Below, one piece after another: positions 11,038 to 13,593 of a stretch of DNA of 25,130 nt (position 1 is the first letter of the stretch; each line of letters starts with the position of its first letter). Source of the DNA: an uncultured Frankiales bacterium (GTDB lineage Bacteria; Actinomycetota; Actinomycetes; Mycobacteriales; SCTD01); assembly GCA_946479905.1 (NCBI GenBank), contig CAMLIA010000040.1:1-25130 (forward strand). Direction: 5' to 3'. The position numbers and the translations under genes were made by a program. The notes below the pieces were generated by a model, which was not told where the DNA came from, searched no databases, and saw only the letters and a program-made list of their open reading frames with translations.

Positions 11038-11053
11038 ACACCCCTGGGGGTAT
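11038..11053. promoter_or_regulatory. CsoR/CstR-type operator 1 (DUF302 side)
   Basis: ACACCCCTGGGGGTAT is an imperfect palindrome of the C-tract/G-tract type bound by CsoR/CstR-family tetramers. It shares GGGGGTAT with operators 2, 3 and 4. It lies between the proposed -35 (11060-11055, minus strand) and -10 (TAAGAC, 11038-11033) of the DUF302 gene, so binding there should block that promoter. Confidence 0.65.
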
Positions 11054-11060
11054 TTGACAA
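11054..11060. promoter_or_regulatory. Overlapping back-to-back -35 elements
   Basis: The stretch TTGACAA reads TTGACA on the plus strand (11054-11059), a perfect -35 for the MmpL gene, and TTGTCA on the minus strand (11060-11055) for the DUF302 gene. Plausible -10 hexamers are CACTCT (11077-11082, plus, 17-base spacer) and TAAGAC (11038-11033, minus, 16-base spacer). The two promoters thus share one -35 region, with an operator on each side. Confidence 0.5.
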
Positions 11061-11076
11061 ATACCCTAGGGGGTAT
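11061..11076. promoter_or_regulatory. CsoR/CstR-type operator 2 (MmpL side)
   Basis: ATACCCTAGGGGGTAT is a 16-bp palindrome with ATACCC and GGGGGTAT arms, close to the operators reported for CstR and related CsoR-family repressors. It fills the spacer of the proposed MmpL promoter. Its centre is 23 bp from that of operator 1, about two helical turns, so two tetramers could bind the same face. Confidence 0.7.
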
Positions 11077-11110
11077 CACTCTGGCGATCAGCCCACGTGA
11101 GGAGAACGCC

Positions 11111-13267
11111 ATGACGTCCAGCACCACTGCACCGCCTGCCGGCTCGGTCGACCTGGGCGACCACGAGTACGGTGCGCTCGGTCGCCTGGGGCTGGTCATG
11201 GCCCGCAGGCGCGGTCGGGTCCTCCTCGCCTGGGCACTGCTCGCCGTCGTGCTCGGAGCGTTCGCCCCGCGCGTCGAGAGCGCGCTCGCGGGCGCAGGGT
11301 GGGAGGCGAGCGGTTCGCCCTCGGTCCAGGCGCGGGACCTGGTGCACCGGGAGTTCCAGGGGTTGTCGAGCGCGGCGCTCATGGTGGTGATCCACAGCGA
11401 CAGCGGTCCGGTGACGTCCGGGCCCGGCGCTCGGGCCATCGCCCGTGCGGAGGCCCTGTTGAAGAGCGACCCCCGCGTCTCCACGGTCGTCCCTCCGACG
11501 CCCGGTGTCTCGATCTCGGCCGACGGGCGCACGGCGATCGTGCAGGGGGGCGCGGCGTCGGCGAACACGAACGAGCTGGTGCGCGCTGCCGACGCGCTGA
11601 AAGGACCGCTCTCGGCGCTGGGCAGCACGCACCTGACCGTGGCGCTGACGGGCTCGAGCGCGCTCTGGAGCGACTTCAACACCGCCAACCGGACCGCCAT
11701 GATGAAGAGCGAGCTGTACAGCTGGCCCGTCACCCTCGCGATCCTCGTGCTGGCCTTCGGCTCTCTCGTCGCGGCCGGGCTGCCGCTGCTCCTCACGATC
11801 GTCGGGCTGGTCGCGGCCGCCGGGTCGCTCTACCTCGGCACGCTGCTGGGCGACATCAGCATCTGGGCGATGAACTTCGCGTTGATGTTCGCGCTGGCGC
11901 TCGGCATCGACTACGCGCTGTTCATGGTCGTCCGGTTCCGTGCCGCGCACTTCGGCCAGGCTGAGACCACCGAGGAGGCCGTGGCGGAGACGATGGACAC
12001 GGCAGGGAAGGCCGTCCTGTTCTCCGGGCTCACCGTGCTCATCAGCCTGTCCGCGGTGATGCTCGTGCCCTCGCCGGCGTTCCGCTCCATGGCGCTCGGC
12101 ATCATGCTGTCAGTCGTCTTCGTGCTGGCGGCGAGCCTGACGCTGCTGCCGGCCGTCCTCGGAAAGCTCGGAAACAGGGTCGACGCCCTCGCTCTGCCCT
12201 GGGTGCACAGCGGCGAGCACCGGTCGCCGCGGTTCGCGCGCTGGGCCGAGCGGCTCTGGCGGCGTCCGCTCGTGTTCGGTGCGCTCGCGCTCGGCCTGCT
12301 CGTCGCGCTGGCCCTGCCGCTGCTCGGGCTGCGCACCGGGATGCCGAGCATCAAGGTGGTGCCCGCGACCGATGGCTCACGCGTCGGGTACTCCCTCGTC
12401 AGCAAGGCCTTCGGGCCGGGCGCACCCGGCACGCTGCAGGTCGTCGCCCCCGCCGCTGAGGCGACGGCGGCCGCCGCGGTGCTGCGAGCCGACCACGGCA
12501 TCGCTCAGGTCATGGCCCCGATGCCGGGCAGCGCGGGCCACGTGCTGCTGCAGGCCGTGCCGGCGACCGACCCCTCCGCGCGGGCGACCGGGGACACGAT
12601 CGACCGGCTCCGGACGGCCCTGCCGGCAGGAACGCTCCTGGGTGGCGCGGCCGCCGAGAACCACGACCTCGAGCGGCTGCTGGCGGCGCGCACCCCACTG
12701 GTGGTGGGAGTGGTCCTCGGGCTGGGGTTCCTGCTCCTGCTCGTGGCCCTGCAGGCCCCGCTCATCGCCGCGCTGGGCGTCGTCACGAACCTGCTGGCCA
12801 CTGCTGCCGCCTTCGGTGTGGCCAGGCTGGTCTTCCAGGACGGCCACGGCGCGGGGCTGCTCGGCTTCGAGTCCCAGGGCTTCCTCGACGCCTGGGCGCC
12901 GGTGTTCTTCTTCGCGATGATCTTCGCGATCGGGATGGACTACACGGTCTTCCTGCTCTCCAGTGCCAAGGAGCACTGGGAGCGCAGCGGTGACGCGCGG
13001 GAGGCCATGGTCGGCGGCCTGGCGCACTCGGGCCGGGTCATCTTCGCGGCCGCGGGGGTGATGGTCGCGGTGTTCCTCACCTTCGCCCTCTCGGGTCCGC
13101 TGCCGCCCAAGGAGATGGGGATCGTCCTCGGCGTGGCCGTCCTGCTCGACGCCGCGCTGGTCCGGCTCCTCCTCCTGCCGGTCCTGCTCCGGCTCGCCGG
13201 GCCGGCTGCCTGGGCCAGCCCCCGCTGGTTGCGACGCGTCCTGCCGACCGTCCGATTCAGTCACTGA
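11111..13267 (+). CDS. MmpL/RND-family transporter
   Basis: A 718-residue membrane protein with the MMPL architecture: N-terminal helix (about 35-55), a first extracytoplasmic domain, five helices, a second extracytoplasmic domain and a final helix block. GIDYALF (Asp267-Tyr268) and GMDYTVF (Asp610-Tyr611) are the paired Asp-Tyr proton-relay motifs in TM4 and TM10. It should be a proton-motive-force-driven exporter of lipids or hydrophobic small molecules. It contains no Cys. AGGAG sits 6 bases before the ATG. The upstream operator and the CsoR-family gene directly downstream suggest control by that repressor, an unusual partner for an MmpL protein. The longer open frame upstream overlaps DUF302 and is rejected. 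Confidence 0.9.
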   Translation: MTSSTTAPPAGSVDLGDHEYGALGRLGLVMARRRGRVLLAWALLAVVLGAFAPRVESALAGAGWEASGSPSVQARDLVHREFQGLSSAALMVVIHSDSGPVTSGPGARAIARAEALLKSDPRVSTVVPPTPGVSISADGRTAIVQGGAASANTNELVRAADALKGPLSALGSTHLTVALTGSSALWSDFNTANRTAMMKSELYSWPVTLAILVLAFGSLVAAGLPLLLTIVGLVAAAGSLYLGTLLGDISIWAMNFALMFALALGIDYALFMVVRFRAAHFGQAETTEEAVAETMDTAGKAVLFSGLTVLISLSAVMLVPSPAFRSMALGIMLSVVFVLAASLTLLPAVLGKLGNRVDALALPWVHSGEHRSPRFARWAERLWRRPLVFGALALGLLVALALPLLGLRTGMPSIKVVPATDGSRVGYSLVSKAFGPGAPGTLQVVAPAAEATAAAAVLRADHGIAQVMAPMPGSAGHVLLQAVPATDPSARATGDTIDRLRTALPAGTLLGGAAAENHDLERLLAARTPLVVGVVLGLGFLLLLVALQAPLIAALGVVTNLLATAAAFGVARLVFQDGHGAGLLGFESQGFLDAWAPVFFFAMIFAIGMDYTVFLLSSAKEHWERSGDAREAMVGGLAHSGRVIFAAAGVMVAVFLTFALSGPLPPKEMGIVLGVAVLLDAALVRLLLLPVLLRLAGPAAWASPRWLRRVLPTVRFSH

Positions 13268-13270
13268 CTG

Positions 13271-13286
13271 ATGCCCGCGGGGGTAT
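13271..13286. promoter_or_regulatory. CsoR/CstR-type operator 3 (autoregulation)
   Basis: ATGCCCGCGGGGGTAT is an imperfect palindrome starting 3 bases after the MmpL stop codon. It shares GGGGGTAT with the other sites. TATCCT at 13284-13289, overlapping its right arm, would make a -10 for the repressor gene, so binding would give autorepression. Its presence also shows that the ATG-less GTG/ATG frame opening at 13271 is not the repressor's coding start. Confidence 0.62.
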
Positions 13287-13306
13287 CCTCGGGACCGACC
13301 CCGAGG
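13287..13306 (+). other. Hairpin overlapping the repressor's ribosome site
   Basis: CCTCGGG (13287-13293) and CCCGAGG (13300-13306) form a perfect 7-bp stem with a 6-base loop. The right arm covers the first four bases of the Shine-Dalgarno GAGGGAG (13303-13309). In mRNA read through from the MmpL gene it could mask translation initiation. There is no T-tract, so it is not an intrinsic terminator. Confidence 0.4.
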
Positions 13307-13315
13307 GAGCCGGCC

Positions 13316-13573
13316 ATGCAGCTCGACGATGTCGCCACCAGGACCGCCGTGAACCGGTTGCGCCGCGCAGAGGGGCAGCTCGCCGGGGTGATCCGGATGC
13401 TCGAGGCAGGCCGTGAGTGCAAGGACATCGTCACGCAGCTCGCTGCCGTCTCGCGGGCGCTCGACAAGGCGGGCTTCAGCATCGTCGCCAGCGGTTTGAA
13501 GCAGTGCCTGGCCGAGGACGGGGGCGAGCTCGACATCGCGGCGATGGAGAAGCTGTTCCTGTCGCTCGCCTGA
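13316..13573 (+). CDS. CsoR/CstR-family repressor, persulfide-sensor type
   Basis: An 85-residue all-helical DUF156 repressor. [20 protein letters not shown] and [19 protein letters not shown] are hallmark segments. The sensor cysteines are Cys35 and Cys64, with the family spacing of 29. At the position of the copper ligand His of CsoR, four before the second Cys, there is Gly60, so Cu(I) coordination as in M. tuberculosis CsoR is not possible. The [10 protein letters not shown] stretch resembles S. aureus CstR (GKDCKDVITQ), which forms Cys-Cys polysulfide links on reaction with persulfides. I chose the ATG at 13316, with GAGGGAG 6 bases upstream, because the upstream in-frame start at 13271 lies within operator 3. 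The downstream SQR, DsrC and DsrE2 genes fit sulfide stress. Confidence 0.88.
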
Positions 13574-13577
13574 CGGG

Positions 13578-13593
13578 ATACCCCCCGGGGTAG
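13578..13593. promoter_or_regulatory. CsoR/CstR-type operator 4 (sulfur operon)
   Basis: ATACCCCCCGGGGTAG lies 4 bases after the repressor stop and 70 bases before the SQR start. Its reverse complement contains GGGGGTAT, as do the other three sites. A weak promoter downstream can be proposed (CTGCCG 13606-13611, CAGGAT 13630-13635). It would tie the sulfur relay operon to the repressor. Confidence 0.62.

Follow-up and report, generated by a model that had tools for sequence, protein, structure and literature searches.

A 25,130-nucleotide stretch of contig CAMLIA010000040.1 from an uncultured Frankiales bacterium, hereafter the window, carries a gene cluster in which a small CsoR-family repressor sits between an MmpL/RND transporter and genes of sulfide oxidation, and four matching palindromes punctuate this cluster. 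Searching the whole window with the pattern ATACCCNNGGGGGTAT, allowing up to three mismatches, finds exactly four 16-bp palindromes, each with GGGGGTAT on one strand and all intergenic when compared with the window's open reading frames (ORFs). The search returns eight strand-matches, against a mean of 0.48 and a maximum of 4 in shuffled sequence, and 0 of 100 shuffles gave eight. A preliminary description of this DNA had placed palindromes at 11038, 11061, 13271 and 13578 with none further in the window, and the pattern search and shuffle control arrive at the same positions. Operator 1 (11038-11053, ACACCCCTGGGGGTAT) and operator 2 (11061-11076, ATACCCTAGGGGGTAT) lie 23 bp apart, start to start, and share the 105-bp gap that separates the divergent DUF302 and MmpL genes, operator 1 on the DUF302 side and operator 2 on the MmpL side; the operator 2 sequence is also found in a Nocardioides sp. 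locus (L020), again between MmpL and DUF302. Operator 3 (13271-13286, ATGCCCGCGGGGGTAT) falls between the MmpL stop and the repressor start, 3 bp past the former and 29 bp ahead of the latter. A longer ORF has an in-frame ATG where this site starts, but repressor relatives start at the residue encoded at 13316, and we therefore read the site as upstream of the repressor gene. Operator 4 (13578-13593, ATACCCCCCGGGGTAG) lies 4 bp past the repressor stop and 70 bp before the gene for sulfide:quinone oxidoreductase (SQR). A TTGACA hexamer between operators 1 and 2 (11054-11059; TTGTCA on the other strand) is a possible -35 element common to both directions, a reading that stays by eye because a sigma-70 promoter and terminator scan of 10900-16300 found nothing, including no sigma-70-type pair.

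Profile searches identify the genes around these sites, and the sites lie outside all of the listed genes, in keeping with the earlier claim that they precede DUF302, MmpL, the repressor and SQR. On the minus strand, divergent from MmpL, is a DUF302 protein of 129 aa (10616-11005; PF03625, 83.7 bits), whose solved relatives 1j3m and 1q9u are named merely as conserved hypothetical or uncharacterized. DUF302 has been found in the sox clusters of chemolithotrophs, without an assigned role. The remaining genes are on the plus strand, beginning with the 718-aa MmpL/RND transporter (11111-13267; PF03176, 230.4 bits). The DY motifs of MmpL proteins function in the membrane part, and the window protein, which has zero cysteines, carries two of them, at 267 and 610, as expected of the MmpL subfamily; its relatives in the PDB are MmpL3, MmpL5 and MmpL4. 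Next come the 85-aa repressor (13316-13573; PF02583, 81.9 bits against a cut-off of 22.8), a 411-aa type III SQR (13664-14899; NF049943, 631.8 bits against a cut-off of 525), a DsrC/TusE sulfur-relay protein ending in GCV (14911-15225; PF04358, 114.4 bits, and TIGR03342 over its cut-off) and a DsrE2-like sulfur carrier (15239-15775; PF13686, 101.5 bits; NF047629, 109.8 bits, under its cut-off of 210).

With gaps of only 11 bp between SQR and DsrC and 13 bp between DsrC and DsrE2, these three genes are read as one transcript. In 79 of 80 related loci (the best 80 of 572 loci encoding an SQR relative), SQR is likewise followed by matches to DsrC and DsrE2; the exception, L008, ends 92 bases past the SQR match, and many of the 79 have an extra 0.7 kb between SQR and DsrC. 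An OsmC-like protein (15851-16243; PF02566, 61.3 bits) is the least certain member of the putative regulon. The 75-bp gap between DsrE2 and OsmC (15776-15850) holds a very stable hairpin (-47.2 kcal/mol, z -4.74), not listed by the terminator scan, which requires a T tail, and this gap and hairpin place OsmC's membership in the SQR transcript in doubt. Among relatives, OsmC and SQR of L030 diverge from either side of a site, a site lies about 520 bp before the OsmC match in L016, and no site is present at OsmC in L022. A place for OsmC in the regulon is plausible, and a place in the SQR transcript less certain.

Copper-sensing CsoR proteins use a C-H-C set of ligands, the histidine among them. 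In the window repressor, Gly60 aligns with the copper histidine of Mycobacterium tuberculosis CsoR, while all 11 aligned repressors (the window protein and 10 chosen from 120 listed matches) keep C35 and C64. The spacing of these cysteines, 29 residues, equals that of Cys37/Cys66 in ScCsoR of Streptomyces coelicolor and C31/C60 in Staphylococcus aureus CstR. The best PDB matches of the repressor are 7mq1 and 7mq2, of which 7MQ2 is labelled CstR in the figure legend of a review, and its nearest named matches, among those listed, come from metagenome-assembled genomes of Mycobacteriales and Frankiales. Linkage to sulfur oxidation, as befits a CstR-type protein, is found in SQR, DsrC and DsrE2 in the window, and in persulfide dioxygenase (PDO), rhodanese and TauE in relatives. 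By its cysteines and absent histidine, then, the sequence of the window repressor marks it as CstR-type and not copper-CsoR-type. The operators agree with this assignment: ScCsoR (SCO0620) is described as binding ATACCn6GGTAT, with two sites in the PDO promoter, and as being released by polysulfide (PMC7533328), and operator 2 matches that published sulfane-sulfur motif exactly while the other three differ by one change each. Two repressor relatives, in L130 and L178 (genome G010), have QSI for QCL and so lack the second cysteine at that place; a cysteine occurs earlier in the helix.

It could still be argued that a copper-sensing CsoR uses these sites as its operators and that the cluster answers copper, with the sulfur genes present through an overlap of copper and sulfide stress. 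Published CsoR and RicR sites from other bacteria look alike, and in Mycobacterium bovis a connection between an MmpL locus and a copper response has been described (PMC9048740). We nevertheless consider this explanation unlikely. The copper histidine is replaced by glycine, and the Nocardioides sp. genome (G001, 4.8 Mb) that holds L020 encodes one other CsoR-family protein, an unlinked copper-type (C/H/C) paralogue; the 4.2 kb surrounding its gene contain no such site. The only two sites at one mismatch or fewer in that genome both lie between MmpL and DUF302, at the local repressor, and a reversed control gave 0. The neighbours found in these loci are SQR, PDO, rhodanese and TauE, copper-pump genes not having been searched for. 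A copper CsoR as regulator was thus set aside on the missing histidine together with the copper-type paralogue in the same genome.

The CstR-type assignment leaves the question of whether MmpL belongs to the same regulon, and here comparison across genomes is informative. MmpL matches at E <= 1e-100 occur in at least 39 of 394 genomes of the class, a lower bound since two candidates were scored per genome. We took 43 MmpL loci (44 rows, two of them one gene), of which 40, from 37 genomes, form a clade at 53-77% identity and three fall outside it at 35-39%. Near the clade MmpL genes we observe a repressor relative in 31 of 40 loci and a DUF302 relative in 25 of 40. Counting as a site an ATACCC form scoring at least 11/12 or the changed form described below, and extrapolating the MmpL start from the alignment, an operator precedes MmpL, or the same-strand gene run that contains it, in 33 of the 40 clade loci. 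The site lies within 400 bp of the MmpL start in 22 of these and before a repressor-MmpL pair in one (L130, placed by hand). In the other 10 it lies before a same-strand run of rhodanese, PDO, TauE and MmpL, with MmpL last; the sole one of the ten checked against Pfam (L157) encodes a Lactamase_B domain plus rhodanese, a lone rhodanese and TauE. Thirty of the 33 operator-bearing loci have two sites. By contrast, none of 200 control segments, each of 400 bp and taken from within MmpL coding sequence, and none of the three non-clade MmpL loci carry one. The lack of cysteines in MmpL was weighed as a further line of evidence and dropped: the aligned part has none in 35 of 40 clade loci, and we left the count unused because the three non-clade proteins have 3, 0 and 1.

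The repressor and its sites also appear to change together. A repressor subclade in which Gln21 is replaced by His adjoins sites of the form AWCCCCC-NN-GGGGGWT rather than ATACCC-N4-GGGTAT. Among 46 repressor rows, those under 45% identity having been dropped and sites counted within 1.5 kb, all 16 rows with His have the changed form only; of the 29 with Gln or Arg, 24 have the ATACCC form only and 5 have no site, and one fragment went unscored. Fisher's test gives p = 1.6e-11, a value that overstates the covariation because the His group is a single clade and represents one change on the tree. The genome-wide placement of the changed sites is better evidence. The changed form occurs in 11 of 15 chosen genomes, as 24 sites in about 48 Mb, every one of the 24 at a repressor or MmpL locus, with 0 in the reversed control; in each of the four genomes without it (G001, G139, G146, G228), the MmpL locus has a repressor of the Gln type. 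The repressor is 2.1 Mb from MmpL in G287 and 0.87 Mb from it in G036. Both genes have a site pair of their own, and these are the only exact matches to the changed pattern in either genome. Twelve further loci were fetched (L172-L183), and seven hold a CstR-type repressor and a site, all with the expected residue (His in L172, L173 and L181; Gln in L174, L175, L178 and L182). Distant or copper-type members without a site are present in L176, L177 and L179, a fragment lies near two ATACCC sites in L180, and L183 has no repressor match. According to a review, knowledge of how CsoR-family proteins read DNA is "rather limited", and the Gln21/His operator switch offers a ready two-state system for its study.

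The unlinked His-type repressors of G287 and G036 have a neighbour of their own. Divergent from the repressor and behind the changed site pair is a gene (L172:3271-3733; L173:2539-2968) that by eye resembles an AhpD/carboxymuconolactone decarboxylase with CxxC. It is a possible further regulon member, and such a gene would fit thiol or peroxide stress.

Loci gathered through SQR give a different view of the cluster. Of the 80 SQR loci, 79 had at least 150 bp upstream and were scored, and a site of at least 11/12 lies within 300 bp upstream of SQR in 16 of them, where 0.26 would be expected from the site density in the remainder of the same loci, other sites of this kind being counted in that density. 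DUF302 is found within 6 kb of SQR in 9/79 loci and OsmC in 2/79. The Nocardioides locus L020 resembles the window in full, with the order MmpL, two operators, DUF302, repressor, a weaker site (10/12), SQR, DsrC and DsrE2. A recurring asymmetric variant, ATACCGTNGGGGGTAT, stands 14-41 bp before SQR in L048, L050, L053 and L062.

Taken together, these observations lead us to view the locus as a CstR-type sulfane-sulfur stress regulon of an actinobacterium in which MmpL is a recurrent member, a reading to which we give a probability of about 0.83. The four palindromes very probably mark genes that are switched jointly by the small sulfur-sensing repressor. MmpL membership, proposed in the preliminary description for the window, gains support from operators, gene order and repressor/operator covariation that recur in other genomes. 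The further proposal that one persulfide-sensing repressor controls seven genes is supported by the fingerprint, the operators and the relatives, the least secure of the seven being OsmC, whose inclusion in the SQR transcript is uncertain given the hairpin gap.

Several observations weigh against this view. Seven of the 40 clade loci have no full-score site (L132, L133, L152, L153, L154, L155, L156); L133, L153 and L155 have sites of 10/12, with only 81 bases of upstream sequence in L153. Of the six loci closest in MmpL sequence (72-77%), five belong to this group. An ArsR-type gene precedes MmpL in L152, L154 and L156 (in L156 by eye), perhaps reflecting a swap of sulfur sensor. The ArsR-type regulators of L152 and L156 contain a CEQVC motif, and the preceding gene in L152 is DoxX-like by eye. 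Among the SQR loci, 63 of 79 have no 11/12 site upstream, and within 6 kb of SQR, MmpL is present in 1/79 and a CstR-type repressor in 5/79. The link of MmpL is therefore to the repressor and not to SQR. The covariation amounts to one change on the tree, and the changed operator pattern was first read off the His-type loci and tested afterwards.

Some of these points would suit a narrower regulon, in which the repressor's targets are DUF302, its own gene and SQR, palindrome 2 merely aids the divergent pair, and MmpL is not really regulated by sulfur. Operators 1 and 2, which share a divergent region at a distance of 23 bp, could both act on DUF302 alone, and the lack of a full-score site in five of the six closest MmpL loci is in line with that. 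We regard the narrower regulon as improbable, however, because MmpL is preceded by the changed site pair in G287 and in G036 at a distance of 2.1 and 0.87 Mb from the repressor, no DUF302 match lies near MmpL in G287 (L147), and in ten loci MmpL stands behind PDO and TauE. The motif is rare in only some of the relatives chosen for scanning: sites are rare in G001, G228, G287 and G036, but ATACCC sites are numerous in G005 (22), G011 (15), G139 (12) and G369 (11), and the reversed ATACCC control gave 4 in G369, 1 in G006 and 1 in G055. Such counts would suit palindromes that arose by chance or belong to a repeat found generally in a GC-rich genome, an explanation that the window shuffle control, the rarity in those four genomes and the covariation with the repressor make very improbable.

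For the CstR-type regulon, we infer a mechanism of repressor binding, release by persulfide, transcripts and protein functions along the following lines. At rest, the repressor would occupy the four C-tract/G-tract palindromes, silencing the divergent DUF302 and MmpL promoters and shutting its own promoter and that of SQR-DsrC-DsrE2. When sulfide is oxidised, persulfide or polysulfide would modify C35/C64 and the repressor would leave the DNA. SQR would then produce more sulfane sulfur, which DsrC and DsrE2 could take over and carry, and MmpL transcription may read on into the repressor gene. MmpL might expel a sulfur-stress substrate, perhaps hydrophobic, from the membrane, the substrate being a guess; the location of the MmpL gene behind that of TauE in ten loci suggests that a product of sulfur stress is exported. 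The MmpL/RND family is known mainly for lipids and siderophores. We tentatively suggest that the MmpL proteins of this clade may be dedicated to exporting reactive sulfur from the membrane, whether as elemental sulfur, as polysulfide or as a persulfidated thiol or lipid, forming an RND-type efflux arm under CstR-type control across Actinomycetes, beside the sulfite exporter TauE. More broadly, MmpL under shared control in many relatives suggests that bacterial sulfide defence has a transport arm which has so far gone unrecognised.

Elsewhere in the window, on the minus strand, the gene of an ArsR-family regulator overlaps that of a SulP sulfate permease at the latter's start (1473-3445), a second, possibly sulfur-related unit. 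A cysteine-synthase-like PLP enzyme, under the cysK/cysM model cut-offs, lies on the same strand at 17890-18858.

Published CstR-type regulons, in the sources available to us, consist of enzymes and a sulfite exporter. Among the titles and abstract openings found, no report places MmpL in a CstR/CsoR sulfur regulon, although several of the papers do contain both terms, subscription literature was mostly outside this scope and absence is unproven. Thus, within that literature, the CstR and ScCsoR regulons and a CsoR-DUF302-rhodanese-TauE module with an MFS transporter are known already, and the membership of MmpL appears new. CstR and the cst operon of Staphylococcus aureus likewise involve a dithiol CsoR-family persulfide sensor controlling sqr, but there probably a single operon is directly regulated (PMC5480029), whereas we predict three or four transcripts here, one with an RND transporter. 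The SUL module of Arthrobacter plasmids clusters a CsoR-family regulator, sulfur dioxygenase, two rhodaneses, TauE and DUF302, but has an MFS transporter instead of MmpL, and the available text does not mention operators (PMC6305408). TTHA1953 of Thermus thermophilus is a CsoR-family protein that binds DNA best when reduced and controls sulfur oxidation genes; its operator differs (TACNNTACNNNNGTANNGTA), and its targets are distant from its own gene (PMC10318464). ScCsoR is alike in having two cysteines 29 residues apart, the same operator motif, two sites in a target promoter, and control of itself and of sulfur-removal genes, but its four genes encode the repressor, PDO, rhodanese and a sulfite transporter, with no SQR and, in the available text, no mention of MmpL or DUF302 (PMC7533328). 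Against ScCsoR, the window has SQR-DsrC-DsrE2 together with MmpL and DUF302, and a recurrent MmpL would add a membrane-transport arm to sulfide defence, linking the RND family to sulfur stress.

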